A program made the position numbers and the translations under genes. Below the pieces are notes generated by a model. It was given only the letters and a program-made list of their open reading frames with translations. It was not told the DNA's origin and searched no databases. A stretch of 64,000 nt of DNA, taken from the IMG/VR virus record IMGVR_UViG_3300037882_002341, positions 1 to 64,000 of that record, one strand, 5' to 3'. The stretch is from a virus. Shown one piece after another: positions 2,157 through 25,254 of the stretch; the first letter of the stretch is position 1, and the number at the start of each line of letters is the position of its first letter.

Positions 2157-2675
2157 TTACTTGACCTTGGCGGGGTCTAGGTTTTCTTTGTTCAGTCTCT
2201 CGATGAACGATAGTAACTTCGGACCTGCTGTCCAGCTTGTCTGTTCTATACGCTTCCCGTTTTCCCTCTTCTGAGACGAGGATGACAGAAGATAATCGCT
2301 CATTGGCACATGAATCTTGAATCTCTTCAGTGACACAAGATTTATCCAACCCTTCAGATTCCGGAGAATAATCTTCTGATCGGAATTTATCTGTCGGAGA
2401 ATTTCTGCTGAATCGATTGACTGGGGGCTTACTGAGTAGATTATTTCCAGAATCTGGAGATACAGTTTTGTTTTCTCTGTCAGAGATAGAGGACTTTTCT
2501 TCTTTGGCTCGAATCTGTTCTGTGTTGGTTGCTGTATGGGAAAGAAGTTTGGGTTCGATAACTTGTTCTCCCGAGACAATTCGTCTTTTCCCATATGAGA
2601 AAGAATCTCCCTTGCCTCGGTAGCACTATTGCACTCGATTATGATTCCATTCGGGAAACTAATCTTAATTGACAT
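2157..2675 (-). CDS. hypothetical protein
   Basis: 172 residues. Residues 1-30 look like a small beta domain (SIKISFPNGIIIECNSATEA), followed by a polar linker, then a helical segment (TEKTKLYLQILEIIYSV) resembling the start of a winged-helix or HTH unit, and a basic C-terminus. No catalytic motif. It overlaps the upstream gene by 11 bases. A DNA-binding role would be a guess. Confidence 0.65.
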   Translation of the reverse strand: MSIKISFPNGIIIECNSATEAREILSHMGKDELSRENKLSNPNFFPIQQPTQNRFEPKKKSPLSLTEKTKLYLQILEIIYSVSPQSIDSAEILRQINSDQKIILRNLKGWINLVSLKRFKIHVPMSDYLLSSSSQKRENGKRIEQTSWTAGPKLLSFIERLNKENLDPAKVK

Positions 2676-3108
2676 TATGCTTTTCTTCCTCGGTAAACCT
2701 TTTTAGGGGAGGTTTGACCCAAGATGCAAAAGGTTTTGCACACCACTCTTTGACAAGAGTTACATCAAGTCCTCTGTTAGAGGCGAGAGAATAGAAACGT
2801 TCAGGCCATTGTTCAGGCTCGAACTGATCGTGAATACGTTGGGCACTATCTGCGATACCATATTGAATAGTATCAATTCCTTTATTCTCCAGGAATACTC
2901 TAAGTCTTTGACTTCTTTCTGAAGCACAGGGGTCTCTTAGACTTGCATATCTTACTGTTTCTACTTCTTCATCAGTTAAGAAGATACCTAAGGCACATTT
3001 CGTTCCTTCAGGTCCTCTATATAAACAAGTTAAACTACTATCTGTAGATTTCCTTCCCTGTTTTTGTAGATGCTCAACGATCTTGTCGAGTACTTCTTGA
3101 TCTGTCAT
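2665..3108 (-). CDS. conserved hypothetical protein with CLYRG..KCALG motif
   Basis: 147 residues. The N-terminal pattern VLDKIVEHLQKQGRKS then CLYRGPEGTKCALGIFL resembles a widespread family of uncharacterised phage and bacterial proteins with the same Cys-spaced motif. The middle contains RIHDQFEPEQWPERF. The C-terminus is basic. Its ATG overlaps the TGA of cassette gene B1. Function unknown; cytosolic. Confidence 0.7.
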   Translation of the reverse strand: MTDQEVLDKIVEHLQKQGRKSTDSSLTCLYRGPEGTKCALGIFLTDEEVETVRYASLRDPCASERSQRLRVFLENKGIDTIQYGIADSAQRIHDQFEPEQWPERFYSLASNRGLDVTLVKEWCAKPFASWVKPPLKRFTEEEKHNVN

Positions 3109-3332
3109 ATAATTACCTTTTCCAGGGGTTTACGATCATCGATAATTTCTTGAGCAATAATTCTTATTTCATTACGACTAGTGGTCTTGATTTGGCTACT
3201 ATAGGTAAGTCCATTTAGACAAGGGTCAACACTATGAAATGTGTAAGGTGCTAACTTTTTCCATAAAGCACCGAGAAGTGTAGGTAATTCTCTACATCTC
3301 TTATTCTCTACCTCCGGTAGAGCTATTACCAT
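3105..3332 (-). CDS. cassette protein B, copy 1
   Basis: Seventy-five residues from ATG. Family B is defined within this window by an N-terminal MV-x-ALP-[EG]-x-E block, a middle segment with an aromatic/DP element (HSVDPCLNG here), and a C-terminal EIR-x-IAQEII helix. This copy has MVIALPEVE and NEIRIIAQEIID. It follows gene A1 in the same frame: A1 ends TGA, then CCC, then this ATG, so UGA readthrough would give an A-P-B fusion. No Shine-Dalgarno is placed well for the ATG. Its own stop is TGA and overlaps the next gene. I recognise no described family. Confidence 0.75.
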   Translation of the reverse strand: MVIALPEVENKRCRELPTLLGALWKKLAPYTFHSVDPCLNGLTYSSQIKTTSRNEIRIIAQEIIDDRKPLEKVII

Positions 3333-3335
3333 GGG

Positions 3336-3482
3336 TCAAGCTATTCCACTAACATAATCATAGATTCCGCCATCTAATAGTATAGGTTTTCCTTCTTTAA
3401 TCCATTGTGCGAGTCTTTCTAATCCTTCTGTTGGAATCTGTACTAGACCTAGCTTTATGATTCCTTTAGTTTCTGGGAGCAT
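3336..3482 (-). CDS. cassette protein A, copy 1 (48 aa)
   Basis: A short gene present in six copies, each directly before a B gene. Family pattern: Q-[IV]-P-x2-GL-x-RL-x2-WI-x2-GKP-[IVL]-LL-x-G-x-I. This copy reads VQIPTEGLERLAQWIKEGKP then ILLDGGI. It is helical then beta-like, too short for a membrane protein, with no Cys pairs. Its stop is UGA followed by CC, as in every copy. Conservation across six copies with divergent DNA shows that it is translated. Function unknown. Confidence 0.75.
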   Translation of the reverse strand: MLPETKGIIKLGLVQIPTEGLERLAQWIKEGKPILLDGGIYDYVSGIA

Positions 3483-3491
3483 ATTTTTCTC

Positions 3492-3692
3492 TTATTCTTT
3501 AAGCAGTTTATCTAATAATATATTTAACTGTTTTACATCAATCTCTCCATGTATTTGTCTTATTACCTTACCAACAAGAATTCCCTTAACAGCAGTTTTC
3601 CCAGTACGATATTTTGCAACTATATCGGGATTTGTGGCAAGAATTTTAAGACAGATATTACGAAGGCTAGTATCGTCTTCTTCGATTGTCAT
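3492..3692 (-). CDS. free-standing GatB/YqeY C-terminal (tail) domain-like protein
   Basis: Sixty-six residues. From residue 21 it matches the helical tail domain that ends GatB (the Asp/Glu-tRNA amidotransferase subunit) and the YqeY family: NPDIVAKYRTGKTAVKG, then ILVGKVIRQIHG and a VKQLNILLDKLLKE ending, compared with the family's NP-x2-V-x2-YR-x-GK...GFFVGQVMK...N-x2-LL-x2-L. In GatB this region contacts the elbow of tRNA, and the phage encodes some 33 tRNAs. There is no amidotransferase catalytic part. Likely a tRNA-binding adaptor, but that role is inference. It lies between cassette A1 and a small basic protein gene. Confidence 0.75.
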   Translation of the reverse strand: MTIEEDDTSLRNICLKILATNPDIVAKYRTGKTAVKGILVGKVIRQIHGEIDVKQLNILLDKLLKE

Positions 3693-3697
3693 AATAT

Positions 3698-3856
3698 CTA
3701 CTTTTTATTGAACTTACCTAATCTACGAGACCACTTATCTTTCTTGTGGCCGGAATCTGCCTTAGAACGTTTCGGATTAGGTGGCATGATTCCTGTCTTA
3801 GTAATCGCTAAATCTCTCTTACGTCTCTCCTCTGAGGTCCAACGTATCTTTTTCAT
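3698..3856 (-). CDS. small highly basic protein (52 aa)
   Basis: ATG with an AAAGGAACGG Shine-Dalgarno. The product begins MKKIRWTSEERRKRD and ends KWSRRLGKFNKK, with about a third Lys/Arg. It is probably nucleic-acid associated and disordered. It ends five bases before the GatB/YqeY-like start, so the two are probably co-translated. No family recognised. Confidence 0.6.
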   Translation of the reverse strand: MKKIRWTSEERRKRDLAITKTGIMPPNPKRSKADSGHKKDKWSRRLGKFNKK

Positions 3857-3883
3857 TCCGTTCCTTTATGGGATCAATAAAAT

Positions 3884-4144
3884 TCATAATTGGATATCTA
3901 ATTTAGATTCATTAATGATTTCTTGTGCGATGTCTCGAATCTCACTAGGTGTAAAGTTTTTCAGTGAATGAGAATATCTTAATATTCTTTCTTGTTCTTC
4001 ATATTCTTCTGCACTTGCAGTAATAGCATTACCCATAATGGGATCAATGTCGAACTCTATATATCCAAGTTTACGCCATCTATATCCTAGGTCTGAAAAG
4101 CAGTCGAAATCCTTTTGTTCTTCCTCCGGAAGAGCTACAACCAT
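3884..4144 (-). CDS. cassette protein B, copy 2
   Basis: Eighty-six residues, MVVALPEEEQKDF at the N-terminus and SEIRDIAQEIINESK near the C-terminus, the clearest agreement with copies 1 and 3. The middle has FDIDPIMG plus a short insertion rich in Glu/Arg. Gene A2 ends TGA-CCT immediately before this ATG and in the same frame. Confidence 0.75.
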   Translation of the reverse strand: MVVALPEEEQKDFDCFSDLGYRWRKLGYIEFDIDPIMGNAITASAEEYEEQERILRYSHSLKNFTPSEIRDIAQEIINESKLDIQL

Positions 4145-4147
4145 AGG

Positions 4148-4294
4148 TCAGTGAACACCTTTCGATGTTACTGCTCCATTTAACAGTAACTCTTTACCGC
4201 CATCTATCCAGGCTATAAGTCTTAAAAGTCCATTAATTGGGATTTGCTTCAGAGCAGTTTTTACAACTAATCTTTGTTTATCTATAAGTTTCAT
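4148..4294 (-). CDS. cassette protein A, copy 2 (48 aa)
   Basis: Same length as copy 1: MKLIDKQRLVVKT, then KQIPINGLLRLIAWIDGGKE and LLLNGAV. Its UGA stop is followed by CCT and the B2 ATG in frame. The gene begins 11 bases after the stop of B3, so cassettes 2 and 3 are tandem. Confidence 0.75.
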   Translation of the reverse strand: MKLIDKQRLVVKTALKQIPINGLLRLIAWIDGGKELLLNGAVTSKGVH

Positions 4295-4305
4295 TTAAAA
4301 CTCTC

Positions 4306-4530
4306 TTATTTGTGCCCATTAAGAATATCTTGAGCAATTTTCTTAATATCACTAGGAGTAGTGTTAATAAGTTCTTGAGTGTAAGTGGTTAATGCTTTTC
4401 CACTTTTATCAAGAACATGTGGATTTACACTAAAGTGTCCAAGAAAACCATTTCTTTTCCAAACTTCTCCTAAAACCAGGATTCTTTGTGCAAAACGAGT
4501 AATTTCTGCCGACGGCAGAGCAGCGACCAT
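4306..4530 (-). CDS. cassette protein B, copy 3
   Basis: Seventy-four residues. MVAALPSAEITRF replaces the usual PEE by PSA. The middle reads HFSVNPHVLD and the end SDIKKIAQDILNG. It is preceded in frame by A3-TGA-CCC. Nearest Shine-Dalgarno-like sequence is a weak GAGAG inside A3. Confidence 0.75.
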   Translation of the reverse strand: MVAALPSAEITRFAQRILVLGEVWKRNGFLGHFSVNPHVLDKSGKALTTYTQELINTTPSDIKKIAQDILNGHK

Positions 4531-4533
4531 GGG

Positions 4534-4677
4534 TCAGAATAAACTCTCACTTGCCCAAATTCTTCCATCTAATAGTAAAGGTTTACCATTATCAATCCAC
4601 TCTATTAGTCTTAAAAGACCAGGAGCAGGAATCTGTTCTAAACCTTGTCTTATTGCCTTTACTGTTAGCTCTTTCAT
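4534..4677 (-). CDS. cassette protein A, copy 3 (47 aa)
   Basis: MKELTVKAIRQGL followed by EQIPAPGLLRLIEWIDNGKP and LLLDGRIW, close to the family consensus. It begins five bases after the exonuclease gene's stop. UGA-CCC-ATG junction to B3. Confidence 0.75.
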   Translation of the reverse strand: MKELTVKAIRQGLEQIPAPGLLRLIEWIDNGKPLLLDGRIWASESLF

Positions 4678-4682
4678 ATTAT

Positions 4683-5204
4683 CTATAACCTTATCTTTAA
4701 TCCCATTGTTTCTTTCATATGCAAAAGTGCCTCTACATTACCTTTTGCATCATCAACAGGATTATGTGTATGTTTCGTTTTACGAAGATGCTTAAAATTC
4801 TTAAAGGTATCTTTCACCAATCCCTTATAGAGAGATCCAAGATTTGTCGAACTAAATCCAAATGGATTAGATCCTAAGAAATGATGGAAATACCAGTTTA
4901 CAAATTGCCAATCAAAACCATTATTATCAGAGATAAACATTGGTTTATCATTACATGAAACCGTTGTTATCCAGTTACGGAAAGCACACATGACTTTTGT
5001 CGGATCTTCAAAAGCTAGTGTTTGCTCACGGCTGAAGTTACTTATAGCTAGTGCTTCAGGTATCCATAAATGAGAGATTGGTGCCATGAAGCCTAGAAAA
5101 GCATGGTCTAAAGATGGCTCCACAACAATTGCACCCAGTGCAATCATTGAGTAATCACCTGGAATTGGGCCATCTGTCTCAACATCAACCATGATATATG
5201 TCAT
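4683..5204 (-). CDS. DEDDh-type 3'-5' exonuclease
   Basis: 173 residues with the four acidic residues and the histidine of DEDDh nucleases: D7 and E9 in DVETDGP (Exo I), D98 in SDNNGFDWQ (Exo II), H147 and D152 in HNPVDDA (Exo III). It is a single compact domain, shorter than DnaQ and close in size to RNase T/oligoribonuclease-type and phage-encoded exonucleases whose N-terminus reads VDVETDGPIPGDYSMI. It would degrade single-stranded DNA or RNA 3' to 5' with two metal ions. Substrate cannot be told. Surrounded by cassettes 3 and 4. Confidence 0.85.
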   Translation of the reverse strand: MTYIMVDVETDGPIPGDYSMIALGAIVVEPSLDHAFLGFMAPISHLWIPEALAISNFSREQTLAFEDPTKVMCAFRNWITTVSCNDKPMFISDNNGFDWQFVNWYFHHFLGSNPFGFSSTNLGSLYKGLVKDTFKNFKHLRKTKHTHNPVDDAKGNVEALLHMKETMGLKIRL

Positions 5205-5216
5205 ATTATTTTCTAG

Positions 5217-5447
5217 TTAAAGTTGTTCATAGGACAATCTACTTTGTTCAGATCTCTCGGTTAACAGCATATTTATAACTAATAGAATGTGTGCAGTTGT
5301 TGAAGTTCTAAGTGCCATAAAATACGAGTTCTTTTCAATCTCTGGATTATTTAAGAACTCATTGTTCTTAAATCCCAGATACATTCTTGCACCCTCTATT
5401 AATCCATTGACTCTTGCAACAGATTCTCTTGTTTCCTCCGGAAACAA
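5217..5447 (-). CDS. cassette protein B, copy 4, ATG lost
   Basis: The B-family start ATG is replaced by CAA: the junction reads TGA CCT CAA GTA CAT TTG TTT CCG GAG GAA, aligning QVHLFPEE with MVxALPEE of the others. The frame stays open, so the region is maintained. The coordinates given use the first possible start, a TTG four codons into B; readthrough of the A4 UGA would also translate it. The rest is the most diverged B copy (VARVNGLIEGARMYLGF, C-terminal ILLVINMLLTERS). Confidence 0.6.
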   Translation of the reverse strand: MFPEETRESVARVNGLIEGARMYLGFKNNEFLNNPEIEKNSYFMALRTSTTAHILLVINMLLTERSEQSRLSYEQL

Positions 5448-5459
5448 ATGTACTTGAGG

Positions 5460-5603
5460 TCAGAAAAGTCCTTCTGCACTAGAAACATAACCACTTAGTA
5501 GGAGTTTTCCTCCTTCTTCTATATATTTCTTAAGTCTCTGAAGTGCTTCTATTGGGGTTCTACCTTCTTGTCCCAGACCCAAAGATAGAAGTCTTATCCT
5601 CAT
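5460..5603 (-). CDS. cassette protein A, copy 4
   Basis: Divergent copy: MRIRLLSLGLGQEG, then PIEALQRLKKYIEEGGKLLL and SGYVSS. I chose the inner ATG because it gives the family length (47 residues) and has GGAAGAG just upstream; an ATG four codons earlier (MEESMRIR) is also possible. It ends UGA-CCT like the other copies, although the B ATG beyond is gone. Confidence 0.65.
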   Translation of the reverse strand: MRIRLLSLGLGQEGRTPIEALQRLKKYIEEGGKLLLSGYVSSAEGLF

Positions 5604-5617
5604 GCTCTCTTCCATAA

Positions 5618-6100
5618 TTACCTTATTTTCTCTATCAGTTTATATTTCTTTATCAGGGTATTGAGATAAATCCTTATCTCTTTTAATGTGGTTCTTCCAT
5701 ACTTGTTATTAGGTCCGTTGTAGAAAAGTTTCCAGCTTTCTTCAATACTAATATCGAAGAATTGAGCGAGAGTACTAACACCTACATATCCCGTAGGTAT
5801 CTGCATTCCCTCGGATCCCAAATCAAGGGTAAATCCTCTTTTCTGAAACCAAGGATCTAGTCCAGCCCAACCAGCTACGCAACAAACTGTTTGGCAAGGA
5901 GGAATATCTTTTTCTCTTATTTTCTCGTCCTTTACTCTTTTCAAGTAACTAAGCATATCAAGCTTATTACTGAATACAGAACCCCATCGACTGATAAAGA
6001 ATGCTCCTGAGGGTTTCTTTGCTACTTTATCTAGTACTCTTTTAAGTTGGAGGAGTTTTCCATATCCAGTACTTTTATCTACAAACATCTTGTTACTCAT
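5618..6100 (-). CDS. CCVAGWAG-family protein, paralogue 2 of 3
   Basis: 160 residues, closest to paralogue 1: YGKLLQLKRVLDKVAKKPSG, GAFFISRWGSVF, PPCQTVCCVAGWAG, WFQKRGF, FFDISIEESWKLFYNGPNN, and a C-terminal KEIRIYLNTLIKKYK helix. The three conserved Cys are kept. No change at the putative metal-binding core, so all three copies are probably functional. Confidence 0.8.
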   Translation of the reverse strand: MSNKMFVDKSTGYGKLLQLKRVLDKVAKKPSGAFFISRWGSVFSNKLDMLSYLKRVKDEKIREKDIPPCQTVCCVAGWAGLDPWFQKRGFTLDLGSEGMQIPTGYVGVSTLAQFFDISIEESWKLFYNGPNNKYGRTTLKEIRIYLNTLIKKYKLIEKIR

Positions 6101-6104
6101 ATTA

Positions 6105-6383
6105 TTATTTTTCCACTATGATAGAGAAATCAGGAGATATTTCGACTTTACGTCCATCTTTTAAGTAAAGCGTATGTGATCCATCTTCATGTTTACTTAT
6201 CTCTTTAACACCTAACCAGTAATCTACTCTTTTACCGGTAGATCCCTTTTTATATACATCTACTTTCATGCTAGGTATAGAAGGTGATTTGGGGCCGCAC
6301 TGAGTAGTAAAGATAGGAATAGATAAAAGAGATACAAGTAGGAAAGGTACTATTGAAGTATTACGATTAGAGATATTCTTCAT
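6105..6383 (-). CDS. small exported protein, probable lipoprotein, paralogue 1 of 2
   Basis: Ninety-two residues. A basic start is followed by a hydrophobic stretch (IVPFLLVSLLSIPIFTTQC) ending at a Cys, though TTQC is a poor lipobox. The mature part (MKVDVYKKG, then RVDYWLGVKEISKHEDGSHT, LYLKDGRKVEI, FSIIVEK) is nearly identical to the protein encoded at 9021-9293. It looks like a small beta domain exposed outside the inner membrane. Role unknown; superinfection exclusion or envelope modification would be guesses. Confidence 0.7.
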   Translation of the reverse strand: MKNISNRNTSIVPFLLVSLLSIPIFTTQCGPKSPSIPSMKVDVYKKGSTGKRVDYWLGVKEISKHEDGSHTLYLKDGRKVEISPDFSIIVEK

Positions 6384-6436
6384 AAAGAGATCTCTTCTTA
6401 TAGTGAGGATATTAAGAAGTTATTTAATAGTTACCA

Positions 6437-6838
6437 CTAAAGATGACTTCTAAGAACATACCGCTCACCAATATTATCTGAGAGCCATTTGGCAGTTCTT
6501 TTCATATCTTTAGTAGTAAATAACTCATTAGGACCAAACATCATTTCATCATAAAGACAATAGCCATCAGGTGTATAAACACCCAGATCCATAATGGCTT
6601 TTCCTTTACAATGACATGTTCTACCTAGTTTGTCTCTTTTCCATGGTGTAACCCAAGTTAGATCAATAGACTTAACTATTGTCCAACGTTTCTTGTAATA
6701 ATTATAAATCCTGTCTCCTGGTGATAAAGCAGCTACACGAGCTACTAATATCCACCAAGTACGCCAGGTATATTGAATACCATCATGAAAAGGAGCTTTC
6801 CATTTCTTCTCGTTTACTCCTCTATTGAACTTTTTCAT
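6437..6838 (-). CDS. conserved hypothetical protein
   Basis: 133 residues. Recognisable segments are PGDRIYNYYKKRWTIVKSID, CHCKGKAIMDLG and YDEMMFGPNELF. The N-terminal half is Trp-rich (YTWRTWWILVARVAALSPGD). Single CHC motif, no clear membrane segment. Its start is 2 bases from the B5 stop. The family is unknown to me. Confidence 0.65.
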   Translation of the reverse strand: MKKFNRGVNEKKWKAPFHDGIQYTWRTWWILVARVAALSPGDRIYNYYKKRWTIVKSIDLTWVTPWKRDKLGRTCHCKGKAIMDLGVYTPDGYCLYDEMMFGPNELFTTKDMKRTAKWLSDNIGERYVLRSHL

Positions 6839-6840
6839 GG

Positions 6841-7083
6841 TTATTCCTTCTTAGGTTCTTCCTCAATTAGTTCTTCTACAGCAGTGCGGACACCAGAAAT
6901 ACCATAAAGAGCTAAAGCAAATACATACGATTCTTCGCGTATGTCACAATTTGGATTTGCCGAGAAAGATTCAACACCATGAGCAATCCACTTACCTTCT
7001 AAAAAAGGCACTATCTTTATGCCCGATCTCTTTGATGCATCAATAACTTCTTGACGTGCTTCTCCCGGAAGCATTACAACCAT
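6841..7083 (-). CDS. cassette protein B, copy 5
   Basis: Eighty residues. MVVMLPGEARQEV keeps the N-terminal block, the middle has FSANPNCD, and the C-terminus (YGISGVRTAVEELIEEE) is diverged from the IAQEII consensus. No Shine-Dalgarno precedes the ATG. It follows A5-TGA-CCT in frame. Confidence 0.7.
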   Translation of the reverse strand: MVVMLPGEARQEVIDASKRSGIKIVPFLEGKWIAHGVESFSANPNCDIREESYVFALALYGISGVRTAVEELIEEEPKKE

Positions 7084-7086
7084 AGG

Positions 7087-7236
7087 TCAAGGAGCACCGT
7101 TCAAATCGACTATATAGCCTGTTGTACTAATAGGCTCTCCTTTATCAATAGCTTTAAGGAGACGTCGATATGCACGTATATCTTTTACCTGGCCAAGTCC
7201 AGCTTTCAATATGTTTAAGTGTCTACGGTTTATCAT
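7087..7236 (-). CDS. cassette protein A, copy 5 (49 aa)
   Basis: MINRRHLNILKAGLGQVKD, then IRAYRRLLKAIDKGEP and ISTTGYIVD. This is diverged in the WI-x2-GKP block but aligns without gaps to copy 4. Stop UGA followed by CCT and the B5 ATG. Confidence 0.65.
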   Translation of the reverse strand: MINRRHLNILKAGLGQVKDIRAYRRLLKAIDKGEPISTTGYIVDLNGAP

Positions 7237-7240
7237 TGGT

Positions 7241-7384
7241 CTATCTTTCTTTACTCTTATTAAGCTTAGTCTGAATAGCCTTTAGCTTTTTGCGTATCTC
7301 CTCTTTAGACAAGTGAACATGAATACTATTGTGTCTAATAGTGCTATTCTTACTAGGTTTATTAAGAGGTTTCTTCTTAGACAT
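7241..7384 (-). CDS. small highly basic protein (47 aa)
   Basis: MSKKKPLNKPSKNS at the N-terminus, then HLSKEEIRKKLKAIQTKL. Lys-rich with a short amphipathic helix. AGAGG lies eight bases before the ATG. Possibly nucleic-acid binding. No family recognised. Confidence 0.55.
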   Translation of the reverse strand: MSKKKPLNKPSKNSTIRHNSIHVHLSKEEIRKKLKAIQTKLNKSKER

Positions 7385-7395
7385 ACCAGTAACCT

Positions 7396-7827
7396 CTATT
7401 GCTTATACTTCTCTAGTAATTTATTAATATATATTCTTACTTCTTCTAGTGTAGTACGAGTAAAGTTATTATTAGGTCCAGTGTAGAAAAGCTTTTCACT
7501 CTCATCAGCAGTAATATTAAAAAACAATTGAACATCTTCTGGAAGTGCTACTTTACTAAAGATAAGTAAAGCATTTATTCCTAGATCAATAACAAGTCCT
7601 CTTTCTTGGAACCAGGGATCTGACCCTGCCCAACCTCCAACACAACAGATTGTTTTACATGCTGGAACATCTTCTATTAAATTTCTGGATCTTAAGAAAC
7701 CAAGTACTTCTTCATCAGTGCTGAACTTTTTACCCCATACTCCAAAATAAAATGCTCCCTGTGCTTTTGTTGATATCTCGTCCATCACTCTCTTGAGATT
7801 GAGAAGTCTCTCATATGTGGTATTCAT
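7396..7827 (-). CDS. CCVAGWAG-family protein, paralogue 3 of 3
   Basis: 143 residues, the shortest copy: YERLLNLKRVMDEI, GAFYFGVWGKKF, PACKTICCVGGWAG, DPWFQERGLVIDLG, FFNITADESEKLFYTGPNN, VRIYINKLLEKYK. The core glycine variant (CCVGGWAG) and a Ser/Thr-poor centre are the main differences from copies 1 and 2. Confidence 0.8.
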   Translation of the reverse strand: MNTTYERLLNLKRVMDEISTKAQGAFYFGVWGKKFSTDEEVLGFLRSRNLIEDVPACKTICCVGGWAGSDPWFQERGLVIDLGINALLIFSKVALPEDVQLFFNITADESEKLFYTGPNNNFTRTTLEEVRIYINKLLEKYKQ

Positions 7828-7841
7828 AGTTATTTACCTCT

Positions 7842-8177
7842 TTACTTATCCATAATTGAGTAAATAAGCCATCCCATTAGGACTGCCATAAGTGGATGGC
7901 CTAAATTTATTACAAAGCTCTGTGACACTACCTTTCGCCATAACTTATTCTCATAATCCGTTTCTATTCTTTGCGGATGGAACAGGTTAACAGTGGTAGA
8001 TATACCAAGAGCCCACCACATTGATAGAGTGGGTGCTCCTAATGGAACAATAAACCATGTCCAGAGTTTACACAAAGCCCAGCCTCTAAGGAAGGTTCCT
8101 ACTATGATACCTATTAATACTATTAAGCATCCAAGACTAAGTTCGGTACTATCTGGATCATCTTTAAACTCGGACAT
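7842..8177 (-). CDS. integral membrane protein, 3 or more TM helices
   Basis: 111 residues. After an acidic N-terminus, a hydrophobic segment LGCLIVLIGIIVGTFL (about residues 15-32) leads into WTWFIVPLGAPTLSMWWALG, and a final helix LMAVLMGWLIYSI lies near the C-terminus. The WFIVPLGAPTLS-x3-ALGIS pattern recurs in uncharacterised phage inner-membrane proteins. It could be a holin-like or host-membrane-modifying protein; no lysis gene is next to it. Confidence 0.7.
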   Translation of the reverse strand: MSEFKDDPDSTELSLGCLIVLIGIIVGTFLRGWALCKLWTWFIVPLGAPTLSMWWALGISTTVNLFHPQRIETDYENKLWRKVVSQSFVINLGHPLMAVLMGWLIYSIMDK

Positions 8178-8204
8178 GATTTACTTTCTTTTAATAAGTA
8201 ATAC

Positions 8205-8318
8205 TTAAAAGTCACTATTACCAGGCCAGGTCTTGTTAAAGATAGTCGCTAAGACGGTTACAATTGCTACAGTTACAGGAACTCCGGTAATGACTATTAA
8301 CCATTCATTACAATTCAT
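8205..8318 (-). CDS. single-pass membrane miniprotein (37 aa)
   Basis: MNCNEWLIVITGVPVTVAI then VTVLATIFNKTWP: one hydrophobic helix of about 22 residues. AAGAAAG precedes the ATG. It lies tightly between two other small genes on the same strand. No homologue recognised. Confidence 0.5.
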   Translation of the reverse strand: MNCNEWLIVITGVPVTVAIVTVLATIFNKTWPGNSDF

Positions 8319-8339
8319 AGATTACTTTCTTAGTTCTGA

Positions 8340-8606
8340 TTAACTGATCTTTTCACACTCTTTAATTAGTGAAGAAGCATCAGCTCTATGATCCTCAGCC
8401 CATTCTTGAATAACATACACAGAATAAGGCTCTAGATCAGCTACTGTAGTATTCTCGAATGGATAGGGACAAGAACATCCACTATCTGTGGCGTAGAAAA
8501 GCTTGTTATCTGACTTTCTTCTGTATACACGTAGTGTACAGAATTCATAGAATAGATCAGGCTCATCAAGATCTCCTACGACATCGTATTCTGAGTCTAG
8601 ATCCAT
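8340..8606 (-). CDS. conserved phage hypothetical protein (ATDSGCSCP motif)
   Basis: Eighty-eight acidic residues with YRRKSDNKLFYATDSGCSCP followed by PFENTTVADLE, a pattern I associate with a small uncharacterised protein in many phages (YATDSGCSCPxPFE). The CSC may bind metal. Function unknown. Confidence 0.7.
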   Translation of the reverse strand: MDLDSEYDVVGDLDEPDLFYEFCTLRVYRRKSDNKLFYATDSGCSCPYPFENTTVADLEPYSVYVIQEWAEDHRADASSLIKECEKIS

Positions 8607-8671
8607 AGTATTTTCCTAATGTTAGACAATATTATTATGTTTTACTCGTCTTCTGATACTACGGGTGAGGA

Positions 8672-8812
8672 CTAATTAGCGATTTTCTGGATAGCCTCGC
8701 TAATATCAATCATAGCCCATCCAATAACTCCAATCCAAAGTGTAATTGATATGAGACAGACAATCACTATTACGTTTCCGAATGTTACCTCTATCTTAGT
8801 TTCGTTAGCCAA
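8672..8812 (-). CDS. single-pass membrane miniprotein (46 aa), TTG start
   Basis: TTG start with AAGGAAA a few bases upstream. Product MANETKIEVTFGN, then VIVIVCLISITLWIGVIGWA and a polar tail. One membrane helix. The start codon is inferred because no ATG gives a full hydrophobic segment. Confidence 0.5.
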   Translation of the reverse strand: MANETKIEVTFGNVIVIVCLISITLWIGVIGWAMIDISEAIQKIAN

Positions 8813-8822
8813 GGTATTTCCT

Positions 8823-9008
8823 TTACTTGTGTTTTTCTGGGTGCACTAGTGGAACAAGTAATTGTCCTCGATCATCGATACCATGCATGGTTTCAAGACG
8901 TTCAAGTCGATCATTGCTATTACAACTTGTTCCAATTATTCCCGCTAAGAGCAAAAGTCCCATGAACAGAGTCCATATTCATGCAGGTTCTTTGTTTTCG
9001 GTGGACAC
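8823..9008 (-). pseudogene. small exported lipoprotein-like gene interrupted by an in-frame UGA
   Basis: A GTG with GGAGAAATA upstream opens a frame reading V-S-T-E-N-K-E-P-A, then UGA (8979-8981), then IWTLFMGLLLLAGIIGTSC and a polar tail ending HPEKHK. Without the UGA this would be a 61-residue protein with an N-terminal membrane segment and a TSC lipobox; a Trp codon at that place (TGG to TGA) would restore it. Alternatives are restart at the ATG at 8963 (46 residues, poor Shine-Dalgarno) or readthrough. Confidence 0.45.
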
Positions 9009-9020
9009 TTTATTTCTCCT

Positions 9021-9293
9021 TTACTTTTCTACTATGATGGAGAAGTCTGAAGGGATTTCAATTTGGCGTCCATCTCTTAAATAAAGAGTATAAGATCCAT
9101 CTTCATGTTTACTTATCTCTTTAACACCTAACCAGTAATCTACTCGATCACCGGATTTATCCTTTTTATATACTTGAACATACATAGAAGGTTGTCTAAC
9201 GGTAGTTGGTCCACAACTAACAAGTACTCCAATAACAAAAGCAAGTGCTATTAGAAAGAAGACAAGAAGAAGGTTAAGTCTGAAATTACTCAT
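9021..9293 (-). CDS. small lipoprotein, paralogue 2 of 2
   Basis: Start at MSNFRLNLLLVFF; the longer frame from 9329 has no advantage. The signal segment ends VLVSCGPTT, a good lipobox with Cys at about residue 27. The mature domain (VQVYKKDKSGDRVDYWLGVK, then SKHEDGSYTLYLRDGR, IVEK) is almost the same as the protein at 6105-6383. It is probably anchored to an envelope membrane by lipid. The clear lipobox here supports the same processing for the other copy. Confidence 0.75.
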   Translation of the reverse strand: MSNFRLNLLLVFFLIALAFVIGVLVSCGPTTVRQPSMYVQVYKKDKSGDRVDYWLGVKEISKHEDGSYTLYLRDGRQIEIPSDFSIIVEK

Positions 9294-9396
9294 TAGGATG
9301 AAATCCTTACAAAAGAGTAATGAGTACATTAGGAGGTTAAAGGAAAGGGATATACATATTAAGGAAGAGGAAGTTAGTACTAAAGGTAGTAACGTA

Positions 9397-9666
9397 TTAT
9401 CTTACTTCCTCTACTCTTACACATTCCCACCAGTCATATGGATAATCCATTGTTGTTGTTGGATTTATCCATGACACACGCATTGTTCCATCATCCCATT
9501 TTACATAATGGAGATCTTTGCATGTAAGGAGCTGTGGACCAGTGTTTCGCTCTGCCACATATAGATCACCTGGTTCAATAGAACCTGGTTTCATTCTAAG
9601 ATTAATTCCTTCTAGATTAAGGACACCTCCATCCAGAAGGACTTTTAATGACTTGTACTCTCTCAT
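9397..9666 (-). CDS. hypothetical protein
   Basis: Eighty-nine residues, beta-rich, Trp-containing: GDLYVAERNTGPQLLTCKDL, then DGTMRVSWINPTTTMDYPYD. AGGGAG precedes the ATG, which follows the upstream TAG directly. Possibly an SH3-like or OB-like small fold from its strand pattern; that is a guess. No membrane segment. Confidence 0.65.
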   Translation of the reverse strand: MREYKSLKVLLDGGVLNLEGINLRMKPGSIEPGDLYVAERNTGPQLLTCKDLHYVKWDDGTMRVSWINPTTTMDYPYDWWECVRVEEVR

Positions 9667-9804
9667 CTAATCTCCCTTTTGCGGCGTATTCTTTACATAT
9701 ACACAACACTCTTCACATCCATTACACTCTAAACATATGTACTTGGAATTCCTAGTCCCACATACGTTACAAAGATACTCAGATTCCATTCTTAGAAGAA
9801 GCAT
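9667..9804 (-). CDS. Cys-rich zinc-ribbon-like miniprotein (45 aa)
   Basis: Start at MLLLRMESEY (GAAGG eight bases upstream); an inner ATG at 9789 gives 40 residues. Cys spacing CNVCG, YICLECNGCEECC suggests two C-x2-C pairs for one zinc. Small zinc ribbons like this are common in phage accessory regions. Partner unknown. Confidence 0.6.
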   Translation of the reverse strand: MLLLRMESEYLCNVCGTRNSKYICLECNGCEECCVYVKNTPQKGD

Positions 9805-9809
9805 AGTTC

Positions 9810-10250
9810 TACCTTCGCAATAGTAGTAAGAGCGTTAGATGTCTCTCTCTTGTAATAGCGCGCTAGAAATAGAAAAGTTGCTGTGTAGGTTCAATCCCAC
9901 TTCAGCCTCAGTACTATTTATTTCCAGGCTCAATCCAGCCTATGTCCTTCATGAGCTCGAGCTACGCTCGAGCCTATCTCCAGGCTAAGTCTAGCTTATC
10001 CCTCTTGTAATCCCCGAGCCTAGGTTTTAAGAGCAAAGATGGGCATGGTATCCTCTCGGACAGGTTGCCTCTTGGATATCCACAGTTTGAGAGCTCTTGG
10101 TAGCTCTCTTCTCTGGATCTTTGCTCTTTTATATAAAACAGGGGTCGCAAAAGCTTTTGTTCTTTTGAGCCTAAGTCTTAAGAGTTCTTCTTGAAGAGTT
10201 CTTAAAAATTAGCCTCGAAAATGCCCTCTGGGAGGGGGTAAAGTACAACT
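9810..10250 (-). other. noncoding island with nested inverted repeats
   Basis: About 440 bases without a convincing gene on either strand. It holds a palindrome centred on gctcgagctacgctcgagc (~9958-9980), two tandem imperfect copies of a CCAGGCT...AGCYTAT hairpin, and the branched element annotated separately at 10029-10128. A GTTCAATCC near 9899 resembles a T-loop but I could not fold a tRNA around it. Strand of transcription is not known; minus is assumed from the neighbours. Confidence 0.5.
10029..10128. ncRNA. candidate structured RNA, three-way junction
   Basis: A perfect 12-bp closing stem (10029-10040 with 10117-10128) encloses a hairpin TATCC/GGATA (10049-10053 with 10074-10078) and a 7-bp hairpin GAGAGCT/AGCTCTC (10089-10095 with 10102-10108). 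On the plus strand the closing stem is followed by TTTT. Pairing was found by eye. No known RNA family was recognised. Confidence 0.5.
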
Positions 10251-10252
10251 TC

Positions 10253-10468
10253 TTACCAGTTCTCTCTTAAGAACTCCATGCAAGCTTCTATTCTCCAGTC
10301 CTGGAAGAAGGGATCGAGATCACTTGCCCGGATACGTTCTGCTAGATCTGGTCTTACGGAACATAGTTCATTAAATAAGAACTGTCCCTTGCGCCATGAC
10401 CCTGGACGGGTTATGAAAGATAAAGTTACCCTACCCGCAAATTGCTCATAGTTCTCTTTATCTGGCAT
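10253..10468 (-). CDS. conserved phage hypothetical protein
   Basis: Seventy-one residues: ENYEQFAGRVTLSFITRPGS, FLFNELCSVRPDLAERIRAS, DLDPFFQDWRIEACMEFL. The pattern VRPDLAE-[KR]-IR-x2-DLDPF recurs in small uncharacterised phage proteins. It overlaps the B6 stop by 11 bases. Cytosolic, no known role. Confidence 0.7.
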   Translation of the reverse strand: MPDKENYEQFAGRVTLSFITRPGSWRKGQFLFNELCSVRPDLAERIRASDLDPFFQDWRIEACMEFLRENW

Positions 10469-10697
10469 CTTTATTTCCTACGTTAAGAATAGCCTGTGCT
10501 ATTTCCTTAATGTCTTCTACGCTGACTAATGAAAGACTTGATCCATAACTAAGATATCTCTCTATGCTCGGATCCCAAAATTCCGGGTCTACCTGGAAAA
10601 GAGGGACACCATTAAGCATCCAAGCTCCCGAAAGGGATAGATCTGAATCAAGACAGTCAATCCTGGATCGCTCTGCCTCCGGCAGAGCGCAGACCAT
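10458..10697 (-). CDS. cassette protein B, copy 6
   Basis: Seventy-nine residues: MVCALPEAERSRID, the middle FQVDPEFWDPS, and EDIKEIAQAILNVGNK. It agrees well with the family consensus although it is 3.4 kb from the nearest other copy. It follows A6-TGA-CCT in frame. A GGAGAG lies 13 bases upstream, far for a Shine-Dalgarno. Confidence 0.75.
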   Translation of the reverse strand: MVCALPEAERSRIDCLDSDLSLSGAWMLNGVPLFQVDPEFWDPSIERYLSYGSSLSLVSVEDIKEIAQAILNVGNKDAR

Positions 10698-10700
10698 AGG

Positions 10701-10856
10701 TCAAAAGAGCTTCTCTCCGTTTGCTTTTGTACAAGTAATTTGACCAGTAAGTAATACTGGCTTACCAGCATTGATCCATTCTATTAGTCTCAAAAGACCA
10801 TCCGTAGGGATCTGATCCAGACCATTATGGATAGTCTTTCTTATGATATCCAGCAT
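10701..10856 (-). CDS. cassette protein A, copy 6 (51 aa)
   Basis: MLDIIRKTIHNGL, then DQIPTDGLLRLIEWINAGKP and VLLTGQI, the copy closest to copy 3. The C-terminus is slightly longer (TCTKANGEKLF). Ends UGA-CCT before the B6 ATG. Confidence 0.75.
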   Translation of the reverse strand: MLDIIRKTIHNGLDQIPTDGLLRLIEWINAGKPVLLTGQITCTKANGEKLF

Positions 10857-21650: not shown

Positions 21651-21654
21651 AGGC

Positions 21655-21726
21655 TCTGAGGTAGCTCAATGGTTGAGCGGCTGGCTGTTACCCAGTTGGA
21701 TGTAGGTTCGAGCCCTACCCTCAGAG
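21655..21726 (+). tRNA. tRNA-Asn (GUU)
   Basis: Acceptor TCTGAGG/CCTCAGA, D-stem GCTC/GAGC, anticodon loop CTGTTAC, T-arm GTAGG-TTCGAGC-CCTAC, G73. CCA not encoded. Confidence 0.9.
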
Positions 21727-21740
21727 CCCTGAATGCCTAC

Positions 21741-21814
21741 AGTAGCCTGGTGCAACGGCAGCATGAGGGACTGTTAATCCCACGATCTAGGTTCGAATCC
21801 TAGGGCTACTGCCA
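21741..21814 (+). tRNA. tRNA-Asn (GUU), second gene
   Basis: Acceptor AGTAGCC/GGCTACT, anticodon loop CTGTTAA, T-arm CTAGG-TTCGAAT-CCTAG, encoded GCCA end. Same anticodon as its neighbour but a different body. Confidence 0.9.
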
Positions 21815-21829
21815 ATTCTAAGACAAAGC

Positions 21830-21903
21830 AGGCTGGAGGTTCCGGCGACCAAGATTGTCTCCAAAACAAATTTAGGTGGGTTCGACTCCCACACAGCCTG
21901 CCA
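21830..21903 (+). tRNA. tRNA-Trp (CCA)
   Basis: Acceptor AGGCTGG/ACAGCCT with a mismatch at 7:66, anticodon loop CTCCAAA, T-arm GTGGG-TTCGACT-CCCAC, encoded GCCA. The anticodon is the normal CCA, not a UGA-reading UCA. Confidence 0.9.
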
Positions 21904-21918
21904 AAAGAATCCTCAGGT

Positions 21919-21990
21919 GTGGCCGTTGACTAAAGGTAAGTCGCCTCTCTGTGAAAGAGGTATATATGGGTTCGAATCCCATCGGTCACC
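21919..21990 (+). tRNA. tRNA-His (GUG)
   Basis: Acceptor GTGGCCG/CGGTCAC, anticodon arm CCTCT-CTGTGAA-AGAGG, T-arm ATGGG-TTCGAAT-CCCAT, C73 as expected for tRNA-His; no encoded G-1. CCA not encoded. Confidence 0.9.
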
Positions 21991-22003
21991 CCTAAGGATA
22001 CCA

Positions 22004-22066
22004 TAGTGTAATTGTAAATAAAACCCCCTTTCGGGGGTTCTAAGATGAGAACTTACAATTACACTA
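22004..22066. terminator. bidirectional terminator with 14-bp outer stem
   Basis: TAGTGTAATTGTAA (22004-22017) pairs perfectly with 22053-22066, and inside it AACCCCC-TTTC-GGGGGTT (22022-22039) forms a second hairpin. It sits between the rightward tRNAs and the converging leftward lipoprotein gene, whose stop overlaps the right arm. Confidence 0.75.
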
Positions 22067-22270
22067 TTTAATGGATTCTATCTCCGACTCTGCCTCCTTG
22101 AGGTCTGTTTGGACCTCAATGGCTTCCTGGATGATCTCTTCTAGTGCTTTCTGATTATTTTTCTGTTGGATATAGATGTCCAACTGTTCTTCTGTTAAAA
22201 GTGGCCTAACGGGTTCTTTTATTGCTTGACCACAACCCAAAAGTAACAGAATAAACAAAAGACATCGCAT
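22064..22270 (-). CDS. small lipoprotein, candidate outer-membrane spanin (Rz1-like)
   Basis: Sixty-eight residues. MRCLLFILLLLGCGQAIKEP: signal peptide with lipobox LLGC. The mature part is a charged helix (LTEEQLDIYIQQKNNQKALE). It overlaps by one base the upstream gene, which encodes an N-terminally anchored coiled-coil protein. Such a pair fits two-component spanins that fuse the membranes at lysis. The rightmost part lacks the usual Pro-rich stretch, so this is a candidate only. Confidence 0.6.
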   Translation of the reverse strand: MRCLLFILLLLGCGQAIKEPVRPLLTEEQLDIYIQQKNNQKALEEIIQEAIEVQTDLKEAESEIESIK

Positions 22271-22590
22271 TACTTCACTCTATCCAACTTGTCTTCAATT
22301 CTCTTTGCGGTGTCTGATACACTTGACAACATAACGCGCAGCGTCTCAACCTGGCCCGTGAGTTTGGTTTGCTCAACCTTTAAAAGACCAGACACAGAGA
22401 TCAGCTCCCTAACTACCTCTTTGTTTTCCAGTAACTCTCTCTCTTGTGAGTCTATTCTATACTCGAGTCTAGCTCCCCACGTTGCGCCACCAATACACAC
22501 CAGGATTATAGGCAAGAGATACTTGACTATATAATTAGGTGTAAGCGGGGAATTTCCCATGTCAGATGTTTCCTGGTCAGTATTTGCCAT
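22270..22590 (-). CDS. membrane-anchored coiled-coil protein, candidate inner-membrane spanin (Rz-like)
   Basis: 106 residues. Short N-terminal tail, one membrane helix (YLLPIILVCIGGATWGA, about residues 24-40), then a periplasmic coiled coil to the end (EYRIDSQERELLENKEVVRE, VEQTKLTGQVETLRVML). The topology and the adjacent lipoprotein support an i-spanin role. No holin or endolysin gene is adjacent. Confidence 0.6.
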   Translation of the reverse strand: MANTDQETSDMGNSPLTPNYIVKYLLPIILVCIGGATWGARLEYRIDSQERELLENKEVVRELISVSGLLKVEQTKLTGQVETLRVMLSSVSDTAKRIEDKLDRVK

Positions 22591-22694
22591 GACTCTCCTT
22601 TGGATTAAGACATAATTATACGATAGATAAATCTAACCCCAATACATTTAAAGTTTAACTTGATCTTTCTACTGATTGATGGCAAAATTCTATC

Positions 22695-22922
22695 ATGAGC
22701 TTTCCTCTTAATCCCAAGTTATTGGAAGCAGCCGAAAAAATTATTGAGGCTCTGTCTTCGGACATCTTGGCTCCGCGCAAGTGTCCCTCTTGTGGAGAGA
22801 CATACTTATCTCCATCTCAAACACAAATAGACAAGATAGACGAAGTGTTACCGGGAAAAATAGACTTCTCCGACGTAGATACAATTTGCTCTTCTTGTGT
22901 GAATACAAGATTTGTAAGCTAG
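22695..22922 (+). CDS. zinc-ribbon protein (75 aa)
   Basis: MSFPLNPKLLEAAEKIIEAL helix, then RKCPSCGETYLSPSQTQIDK and ICSSCVNTRF: two C-x2-C pairs about 36 residues apart. It is followed by a TAGTAGAGC/GCTCTACTA hairpin (~22925-22943). Unknown partner. Confidence 0.65.
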   Translation: MSFPLNPKLLEAAEKIIEALSSDILAPRKCPSCGETYLSPSQTQIDKIDEVLPGKIDFSDVDTICSSCVNTRFVS

Positions 22923-22934
22923 AATAGTAGAGCT

Positions 22935-23114
22935 GTGCTCTACTATCAAAACTTCCATTGTGCAGAGTGTTTAAAAACAGAGAAATTTATTGACGTTGGT
23001 GATTACTGGCTCTGTCTACGGTGTTGTAAGAAACTGTGGAAGAAACATGGTCAAATTAAACCTCGCCCAGATCAGGATGAGAGAAGACTTCCTGAAGATT
23101 CACACGGCGAGTAA
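22935..23114 (+). CDS. zinc-ribbon protein (59 aa), GTG start
   Basis: GTG start inside the preceding hairpin; weak ribosome-binding site. Product MLYYQNFHCAECLKTEKFID, then VGDYWLCLRCCKKLWKKHGQ and an acidic tail. C-x2-C and C-x2-C-C pairs about 16 apart fit one zinc ribbon. It overlaps the next gene by 38-68 bases depending on start. Confidence 0.55.
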   Translation: MLYYQNFHCAECLKTEKFIDVGDYWLCLRCCKKLWKKHGQIKPRPDQDERRLPEDSHGE

Positions 23115-23298
23115 AAGAGCAAGTCCCGACACATCAGAGTTTTGTTTCCTGTGTGACAAGCCAGGAGACAATAGGCAAAGTGGATCCATGTTTAGTACTC
23201 TTATCCCATGTAATCCCGGCAAGGGATTCATAATGGATGAGATAACAGGAATATGGGTTTGCTCAAGTTGCGTGGTCGTGATGGAAAAGAAAATCTAG
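23077..23298 (+). CDS. zinc-ribbon protein (73 aa)
   Basis: MREDFLKIHTASKRASPDTS, FCFLCDKPGDNRQSGSMF, GIWVCSSCVVVMEKKI. C-x2-C pairs at both ends as in the 31310 product, with an IWVC[SQ]-x-C ending in common. An ATG ten codons upstream (MVKLNLAQIR) has a better Shine-Dalgarno (GGAAG) and may be the true start. Confidence 0.6.
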   Translation: MREDFLKIHTASKRASPDTSEFCFLCDKPGDNRQSGSMFSTLIPCNPGKGFIMDEITGIWVCSSCVVVMEKKI

Positions 23299-23401
23299 AA
23301 TTCTCTGGTGTTTTGAAAAGTCTCTGTTAGTATTTGGCACGGTTACTAACCAAGGACAAACCTATGCGTAAAGTCATAAGCCAGATGCCCGCAAAATCCC
23401 C

Positions 23402-23508
23402 GCGAGATACCTTTATAGGTAGTCTCGCCGGACTAGCCACGGCTCGCTATGAATCTGAGCCAAGGCAGTCCTCAGCTAGACCTTGTCGCAAGCAACGACA
23501 AACTAGCT
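23402..23508 (+). ncRNA. candidate structured RNA between tRNA groups
   Basis: Three successive elements: 11-bp hairpin GCGAGATACCT...AGGTAgTCTCGC (23402-23428), GGACT/AGTCC enclosing GGCTC/GAGCC (23430-23471), and AGCTAG/CTAGCT enclosing TTGTCG/CGACAA (23474-23508). No T-arm. It ends nine bases before a tRNA, so it may be processed with it. The stretch 23299-23401 shows nothing else. Confidence 0.45.
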
Positions 23509-23516
23509 AACCCGGT

Positions 23517-23595
23517 AGCGCGGTAGGGGAGTTTGGTCGTCCCCGCTAGCCTCATAAGCTAGAGATCACAGGTTCGAATCCTGTCTGCGCCACCA
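23517..23595 (+). tRNA. tRNA with CAU anticodon (Met or Ile2)
   Basis: Acceptor AGCGCGG/CTGCGCC with an A1:C72 mismatch, anticodon arm CTAGC-CTCATAA-GCTAG, T-arm ACAGG-TTCGAAT-CCTGT, encoded ACCA. The 1:72 mismatch is initiator-like, but the three G:C pairs of initiator anticodon stems are missing. Confidence 0.88.
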
Positions 23596-23601
23596 CCGGG
23601 G

Positions 23602-23674
23602 TTTCGAGATCGTCTAACGGCAGGACCTCGGACTTTGACCCCGACGATGTTGGTTCGAATCCAGCTCTCGAAAC
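23602..23674 (+). tRNA. tRNA-Gln (UUG)
   Basis: Acceptor TTTCGAG/CTCGAAA, anticodon loop CTTTGAC, T-arm GTTGG-TTCGAAT-CCAGC. CCA not encoded. Confidence 0.88.
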
Positions 23675-23733
23675 TCTGGTTGTAAAGCTCTTTGACATTT
23701 CTGGTATCTAAGTAATCTTAGGTATGGTTTTAT

Positions 23734-23808
23734 GGGCTTGTAGTGCTAATGGTAGCACGCCTGCTTTGCAAGCAGGAAGTTAGAGTTCGATTCTCTACTG
23801 GTCCACCA
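23734..23808 (+). tRNA. tRNA-Ala (UGC)
   Basis: Acceptor GGGCTTG/CTGGTCC, anticodon arm CCTGC-TTTGCAA-GCAGG, T-arm TAGAG-TTCGATT-CTCTA, encoded ACCA. First tRNA inside a 16-bp inverted-repeat pair. Confidence 0.9.
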
Positions 23809-23810
23809 GT

Positions 23811-23885
23811 GCTGCTTTCTTCTACTGGCTAGGATATCTCCCTTTCAAGGAGATGAAGAGGGGTCGGAACCCTCAAGCAGTACCA
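23811..23885 (+). tRNA. tRNA-Glu (UUC)
   Basis: Acceptor GCTGCTT/AAGCAGT, anticodon loop CTTTCAA, T-arm GAGGG-GTCGGAA-CCCTC (unusual T-loop), encoded ACCA. Confidence 0.88.
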
Positions 23886-23890
23886 CATAC

Positions 23891-23966
23891 GGGGATGAGG
23901 ATAAAGAGTCGAGTCGCCGACCTGTCACGTCGGAAAAAGCGAGTTCAAGTCTCGTCTTCCCCGCCA
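23891..23966 (+). tRNA. tRNA-Asp (GUC)
   Basis: Acceptor GGGGATG/CTTCCCC, anticodon arm CCGAC-CTGTCAC-GTCGG, T-loop TTCAAGT, encoded GCCA. Confidence 0.9.
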
Positions 23967-23977
23967 CTGTCTTCAAT

Positions 23978-24055
23978 GCTCCTATCGTCTACGTTTGGCT
24001 AGGATAAGACCTTCTCAAGGTCTAGAACTCGGATCGACACCGAGTAGGAGTACCA
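23978..24055 (+). tRNA. tRNA-Glu (CUC)
   Basis: Acceptor GCTCCTA/TAGGAGT, anticodon arm AGACC-TTCTCAA-GGTCT, T-arm CTCGG-ATCGACA-CCGAG, encoded ACCA. Complements the UUC isoacceptor. Confidence 0.9.
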
Positions 24056-24059
24056 CTGT

Positions 24060-24133
24060 ACCGGTTTCGTCTAACGGCAGGATGACGGTCTCTGACTCCG
24101 TCGATTGGGGTTCGAATCCCTGAGCCGGTACCA
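24060..24133 (+). tRNA. tRNA-Gln (CUG)
   Basis: Acceptor ACCGGTT/AGCCGGT, anticodon loop CTCTGAC, T-arm TGGGG-TTCGAAT-CCCTG, encoded ACCA. Confidence 0.88.
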
Positions 24134-24136
24134 TAT

Positions 24137-24211
24137 GTTCAGATAGCTGAGATGGATTAGCGAGGGTCTGAAAAGCCCTAGAGATTGGATCGATACCAAT
24201 TCTGGACACCA
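24137..24211 (+). tRNA. tRNA-Phe (GAA)
   Basis: Acceptor GTTCAGA/TCTGGAC, anticodon arm AGGGT-CTGAAAA-GCCCT, T-arm ATTGG-ATCGATA-CCAAT, encoded ACCA. Confidence 0.9.
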
Positions 24212-24242
24212 AACCTAAGATTACTTAGTATTACTATATGGA

Positions 24243-24317
24243 CGAGGAGTAGGGTAATGGTATCCCACCAGCTTTGGGAGCTGGGGACTGCGAGTTCGAG
24301 TCTCGCCTTCTCGACCA
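24243..24317 (+). tRNA. tRNA-Pro (UGG)
   Basis: Acceptor CGAGGAG/CTTCTCG, anticodon arm CCAGC-TTTGGGA-GCTGG, T-arm GCGAG-TTCGAGT-CTCGC, encoded ACCA. A perfect 10-bp ATAGTGGTGC-CAGA hairpin follows at ~24329-24352. Confidence 0.9.
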
Positions 24318-24359
24318 TAAAGTAATGTATAGTGGTGCCAGAGCACCACTATTTACAAC

Positions 24360-24433
24360 TGCTATGTAGTTTAAGGGTAAAATAGGGCCCTCATAAGGCT
24401 TTGATCCTAGTTCGACTCTAGGCGTAGCAACCA
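24360..24433 (+). tRNA. tRNA with CAU anticodon (Met or Ile2), second gene
   Basis: Acceptor TGCTATG/CGTAGCA, anticodon arm GGGCC-CTCATAA-GGCTT, T-arm CCTAG-TTCGACT-CTAGG, encoded ACCA. Full 1:72 pairing suggests an elongator. Confidence 0.88.
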
Positions 24434-24460
24434 GACATTTGAAAACAAGGTGAGTAAAAC

Positions 24461-24538: not shown

Positions 24539-24565
24539 AGCTATGTTTGTTTAATGCTTCAGTTG

Positions 24566-24593: not shown

Positions 24594-24599
24594 AACCAA

Positions 24600-25217: not shown

Positions 25218-25254
25218 GGGCACCATAACCGAACATCTCCATAGCAACCACGGT

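Follow-up and report, generated by a model that had tools for sequence, protein, structure and literature searches.

The DNA analyzed here (the window) is a stretch of 64,000 nucleotides (nt), positions 1 to 64,000 of the IMG/VR virus record IMGVR_UViG_3300037882_002341, which is 192,957 bp long as a whole and encodes a T4-like terminase. Between positions 3105 and 10856, the minus strand of the window carries six units in which a small open reading frame (ORF), A, runs up to a UGA that is followed by CCY and then, in the same frame, by a second small ORF, B. The initial annotation had described six such A-UGA-CCY-B pairs, and all six (6/6) are present as placed and in frame, with CCY directly after the UGA. 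Only the limits of copy 4 had to be moved: the unit exists, but its A ORF starts at 5615, and the ATG at position 5603 is internal. Across the full record, a profile search with the UGA read through found exactly nine places and one in-frame TGA inside each match. Three of these units lie outside the window on the minus strand of the same record, with the first bases of their UGA codons at 139546, 168049, and 188424. The CCY rule holds for the six window copies; CCA occurs in copies outside the window, and the general rule is CCN, a proline (Pro) codon. The nine units are only 24–48% identical to the first copy at the protein level, and the predicted full-length proteins, written A-X-B with X for the residue at the UGA, are about 115–136 amino acids long. 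We propose that each A-UGA-B unit is one small phage selenoprotein gene in which selenocysteine (Sec) is inserted at the UGA by means of a hairpin of the selenocysteine insertion sequence (SECIS) type, a reading that we hold with a probability of about 0.78. The units and their hairpins (stem, loop, stem) are as follows.

3105–3482, minus strand: copy 1, predicted selenoprotein gene; UGA at 3336–3338; hairpin at 3306–3322, CUCUACC-GGA-GGUAGAG
3884–4294, minus strand: copy 2, predicted selenoprotein gene; UGA at 4148–4150; hairpin at 4119–4133, UCUUCC-GGA-GGAAGA
4306–4677, minus strand: copy 3, predicted selenoprotein gene and the structure-model sequence; UGA at 4534–4536; hairpin at 4505–4519, UCUGCC-GUC-GGCAGA
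5217–5615, minus strand: copy 4, predicted selenoprotein gene; UGA at 5460–5462; hairpin at 5428–5448, UUUGUUUCC-GGA-GGAAACAAG
6841–7236, minus strand: copy 5, predicted selenoprotein gene; UGA at 7087–7089; hairpin at 7057–7073, UGCUUC-CGGGA-GAAGCA
10458–10856, minus strand: copy 6, predicted selenoprotein gene; UGA at 10701–10703; hairpin at 10669–10689, CGCUCUGCC-GGA-GGCAGAGCG
L010:17317–17694, L012:6853–7200, and L013:7695–8066, minus strand: copies 7–9 of the same family, single and scattered far from the window cluster; hairpins GCUCCC-AGUUA-GGGAGC (copy 7), GCUUUaCC-GUU-GGcAAAGC (copy 8, in which one pair is an A.C mismatch and another fold competes), and UGCUUCC-GGA-GGAAGUA (copy 9)

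Probable translation across the UGA

Four observations agree that A and B most likely form a single protein read through the UGA. An AlphaFold2 model of A-X-B, computed with the nine copies as the alignment, is one confident domain across the junction (predicted local distance difference test, pLDDT, 94.2; predicted template modeling score, pTM, 0.87), with the UGA residue placed after a strand and near the middle. The Pro codon ahead of the supposed B start is conserved and changes at its third base only. Copy 4 has CAA where the B "AUG" stands in the other copies, leaving AUG at that place in 8/9. Finally, the alignment columns of the UGA and of the next Pro do not vary, and conservation in the protein is highest along Sec-Pro-Met-Val...Leu-Pro. 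Shine-Dalgarno matches are weak at the A and B starts alike, which makes their comparison uninformative. In this respect the readthrough claim of the initial annotation stands, with good support for translation across the stop codon.

Exactly one internal UGA occurs in each unit (9/9), the in-frame codon thus being kept in at least two different sequences. The earlier observation that UAA or UAG never takes its place extends to all nine copies, despite the rarity of UGA as a stop in this record. Among 95 ORFs of at least 200 amino acids, some of which may be spurious, 64 end in TAA, 25 in TAG, and 6 in TGA. Since TGA, the rarest terminator, ends only 6/95 long ORFs, nine UGAs at nine junctions are not expected of random stops. 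The probability is ∼2e-11 at the 6/95 rate and 5e-5 at the rate found at the ends of B (3/9, as the B parts of copies 1, 2, and 9 terminate at UGA), both values treating the copies as independent although they are paralogues.

The hairpin and its fit to the bacterial SECIS model

An RNA hairpin lies 3′ of the UGA at 9/9 junctions. Its loop begins 19–20 nt past the UGA (counted from the first base after the UGA), a distance that varies by at most 1 nt. The initial annotation had seen the fixed in-frame spacing of the junctions and overlooked this fixed-distance hairpin, their key feature. The loop trinucleotide is G[G/U]N in 9/9 copies (GGA five times, GUC, CGGGA, AGUUA, and, across the mismatched stem of copy 8, GUU), and the stem sequence differs between copies with compensation. 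With eight copies set in one register, 5/8 stem pairs have changes on both sides, and double-changed cells number 12, compared with 5.0±1.7 in shuffled controls. The stem covariation score is 0.482 vs. 0.181±0.049 in shuffles, of which 0/500 scored as high, and the signal vanishes when the partners are slid. Summed stem length is 59, compared with 28.5±4.1 after synonymous recoding and a maximum of 45 in 20,000 draws. Because of this covariation and the excess over the synonymous-recoding null, we conclude that the hairpin has been selected as an RNA structure beyond its amino acid sequence. The loop opens with the third base of a Pro codon, and this codon is CCG in 8/9 copies, CCG making up 9.5% of the phage's Pro codons (p ∼6e-8); the Pro codon directly after the UGA is CCC, CCT, or CCA and in no copy CCG. 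No such hairpin was found where copies 1, 2, and 9 terminate at UGA, even at loose settings.

The bacterial SECIS model specifies an apical loop of 3–9 nt, a stem of 4–16 bp, and a loop located 16–37 nt from the UGA, with one or more G residues among loop positions 1 and 2, usually as N?G[G|U]NN?, and an energy of at most −7.5 kcal/mol (PMC13188914). Eight of nine hairpins strictly match its geometry (loop size, stem, and spacing), and the ninth, copy 8, does so with one A.C mismatch. The loop-sequence rule is satisfied by all nine elements, in copy 8 only across the mismatched stem, and the energy limit is reached by 6/9. The same measurement places the GGUC loop of Escherichia coli fdhF 18 nt past its UGA. 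A strict SECIS-like filter passed 8/9 unit UGAs, compared with 28 of ∼6,190 other TGAs in the record.

In the mechanism that we propose, the mRNA hairpin, with its loop 19–20 nt past the UGA, would act as a bacterial-type SECIS element. Host SelB carrying Sec-tRNA(Sec) would bind the G[G/U]N loop, and selenocysteine would be inserted at the A-site UGA to give A-Sec-Pro-B. If selenium or SelB were short, the ribosome would stop and leave only an incomplete N-terminal piece, making A alone a truncated by-product and not necessarily a purpose. We infer that the residue inserted at the UGA is Sec and, by analogy, that the Sec-Pro site is probably catalytic or thiol-reactive.

Alternative explanations and points against selenocysteine

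All of the evidence for translation through the UGA would also fit programmed readthrough without selenium, in which the ribosome pauses at the hairpin or release factor 2 is impeded by it, and an ordinary near-cognate tRNA reads the UGA, yielding A and A-X-Pro-B at a set ratio. This mechanism also suits a phage without Sec machinery, and a C directly after UGA makes for a leaky stop. However, generic readthrough explains a hairpin but not a SECIS-like loop at a SECIS-like distance, and Sec is, therefore, the best-supported reading. What it leaves unexplained is the G[G/U]N loop and the CCG kept amid a drifting stem, a loop distance of 19–20 nt close to the 18 nt of fdhF, and the failure of any copy (0/9) to turn its UGA into a sense codon or UAG. 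Moreover, A alone would end inside the predicted single domain, so that a useful short product becomes less likely if the model holds. We consider selenium-free readthrough unlikely, and the output that the initial annotation proposed, A plus A-Pro-B from plain readthrough, is probably of secondary importance: the hairpin matches the SECIS model, and the UGA is most likely a Sec codon. Somewhat less likely still is that the hairpin directs UGA decoding by a route other than SelB and Sec, which would amount to an undescribed bacterial stop-codon recoding system serving a nine-member phage family.

Two translationally coupled genes, with A stopping at the UGA, B restarting at an AUG 3 nt on, and a hairpin inside B tuning initiation, would be in keeping with the AUG found at the same place in 8/9 copies and with the abundance of adjoining small genes in phages. 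Coupling nevertheless sits badly with copy 4, which has CAA for that AUG and keeps all else, with a Pro codon before the AUG that varies only at its third base, with the prediction of A and B as a single fold, and with UGA in 9/9 copies though rare as a stop; we regard it as improbable. The GGA loop of several copies recalls a regulator site of the CsrA-like kind, and a palindrome in the DNA of a mobile cassette would be another source of such a hairpin. The loops of copies 3, 7, and 8 read GUC or GUU instead of GGA, the compensatory stem changes argue against a fixed DNA recognition site, and a UGA distance fixed within 1 nt speaks against both, leaving them very improbable. The scarcity of UGA as a terminator (6/95 ORFs) would be expected if UGA were a sense codon throughout the phage or host (a tryptophan or glycine code; code 4 or 25). 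We give this almost no credence: there is one UGA per gene, at a single homologous place and with a hairpin; UGA terminates copies 1, 2, and 9, with no hairpin there, as well as 6/95 long ORFs; and no tRNA with a UCA anticodon is found among the 31 phage tRNAs.

Several points weigh against the Sec reading itself. Copies 1–9 are paralogues of one genome and not nine independent trials. Hairpin energies narrowly miss the −7.5 kcal/mol cutoff in copies 5 (−7.4) and 9 (−7.1), and copy 8, with its A.C mismatch and competing fold, is clearly short of it at −5.6 kcal/mol. The alignment of the nine copies contains no second conserved cysteine (Cys) making a CxxU-type motif. The phage record has no tRNA-Sec, SelA, SelB, or SelD; the Sec reading thus rests wholly on the host, which must supply the machinery (SelA/SelB/SelC/SelD, in our inference). 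The searches of IMG/VR, genome contigs, phages, and plasmids gave neither a Cys homologue aligned to the UGA nor any relative outside the record. IMG/VR was covered by DNA-pattern and peptide scans for U-forms, Cys-forms, and A halves, the genome contigs by a Cys-form peptide pattern only, and phages and plasmids by tblastn; these scans used short patterns or limited collections, and near-identical records may be left out. Cys homologues are the usual companions of selenoproteins, and almost all known families, though not all, have them. Because some known selenoprotein families are without one, the missing homologue lowers confidence but is not defining.

Relatives were likewise absent from 16 terminase-related virus records and from Moorella and Bacillus jumbo phages. 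One DNA match (L065), which initially resembled a relative, was rejected as another gene in another frame. The unit proteins had no significant match among Pfam, PHROGs, and PDB sequences, a fold search against PDB and BFVD returned nothing at E <= 0.001, and Rfam gave no meaningful match.

Host, neighboring genes, and known systems

The closest isolate by terminase (32% identity) and capsid (33% identity) is the Moorella phage MTATph1, and Moorella thermoacetica encodes six selenoproteins (PMC1794560). This kinship is a weak pointer to a selenoprotein-making host; at 32–33% identity, the link is distant, which also counts against the Sec reading. A search for the host via the terminase in genome contigs found no match. 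Of the tRNA genes of the record, 29 lie in the window and 2 outside it. The tRNA array and the neighbors of the UGA genes are listed here.

21654–29722, plus strand: tRNA array, 27 genes within ∼8 kb; the window has two further tRNA genes outside the array
1469–1963, 5618–6100, and 7396–7827, minus strand: three PHROG 889-like paralogues, 52–53% identical to the first, interspersed among the UGA genes and sharing the invariant motif CxTxCCVxGWAG
6105–6383 and 9021–9329, minus strand: two small paralogues with a hydrophobic, lipoprotein-like start and a near-identical C terminus (VDYWLGVKEISKHEDGS)
2665–3108, minus strand: KCAxG-type phage protein (PHROG 17693), whose ATG and the UGA ending copy 1 overlap as ATGA

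A candidate homology between the unit proteins and this KCAxG family, with Cys on the UGA, had P=0.0033 and fell to P=0.49 with the UGA residue masked; it was dropped because the signal came from the single UGA letter. As the UGA genes sit among small unknown phage genes, some of them multicopy, their surroundings suggest host-takeover or accessory functions.

If the Sec reading is true, a bacteriophage exploits the host selenocysteine machinery to make an entire protein family of its own. The tRNA-Sec genes carried by phages would then make sense, phage success would be linked to host selenium, and the nine copies would offer natural SECIS variants at equal spacing for study. Standard gene calling would split such genes into two "hypothetical proteins," and more of them may, therefore, be hidden in phage genomes.

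A literature search for phage selenoproteins, with most subscription journals outside its reach, found none described, and a 2026 review of prokaryotic selenoproteins leaves phages and viruses unmentioned (PMC13188914). Viral selenoproteins have been reported as the glutathione peroxidases of molluscum contagiosum and fowlpox viruses (PMC8310308). As proposed here, those viruses use the host Sec machinery; in contrast, their enzymes are captured host genes with a eukaryotic-type SECIS, whereas the present family is phage specific. Phage tRNA-Sec genes have been reported in Basilisk-like phages of Bacillus (PMC6145125) and in huge wastewater phages, where Sec proteins were only surmised from the tRNA (PMC10747093). 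These phages, too, are tied to Sec decoding, but they carry the tRNA gene, whereas the present phage has the target genes and no such tRNA. Phage stop-codon readthrough is known from the UGA in the coat gene of Q-beta (cited in PMC8310308). There, too, a UGA is read through inside a phage gene, but the shorter product is the coat protein itself. We know of no covarying hairpin of SECIS geometry in Q-beta readthrough.

The closest likeness is to the bacterial selenoproteins of the E. coli FdhF type, which depend on SelB and share with the phage units an in-frame UGA, a small hairpin in the coding region, a G[G/U]N loop, and a similar spacing. The E. coli SECIS stem has a bulged U, whereas the phage stems have none. 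The phage family also differs in being without a known protein family or Cys homologue and in having nine paralogues in one genome. Sec insertion by means of a downstream hairpin is thus known from bacteria; what would be new is a selenoprotein family in nine copies that is specific to a phage and has no known Cys relatives.

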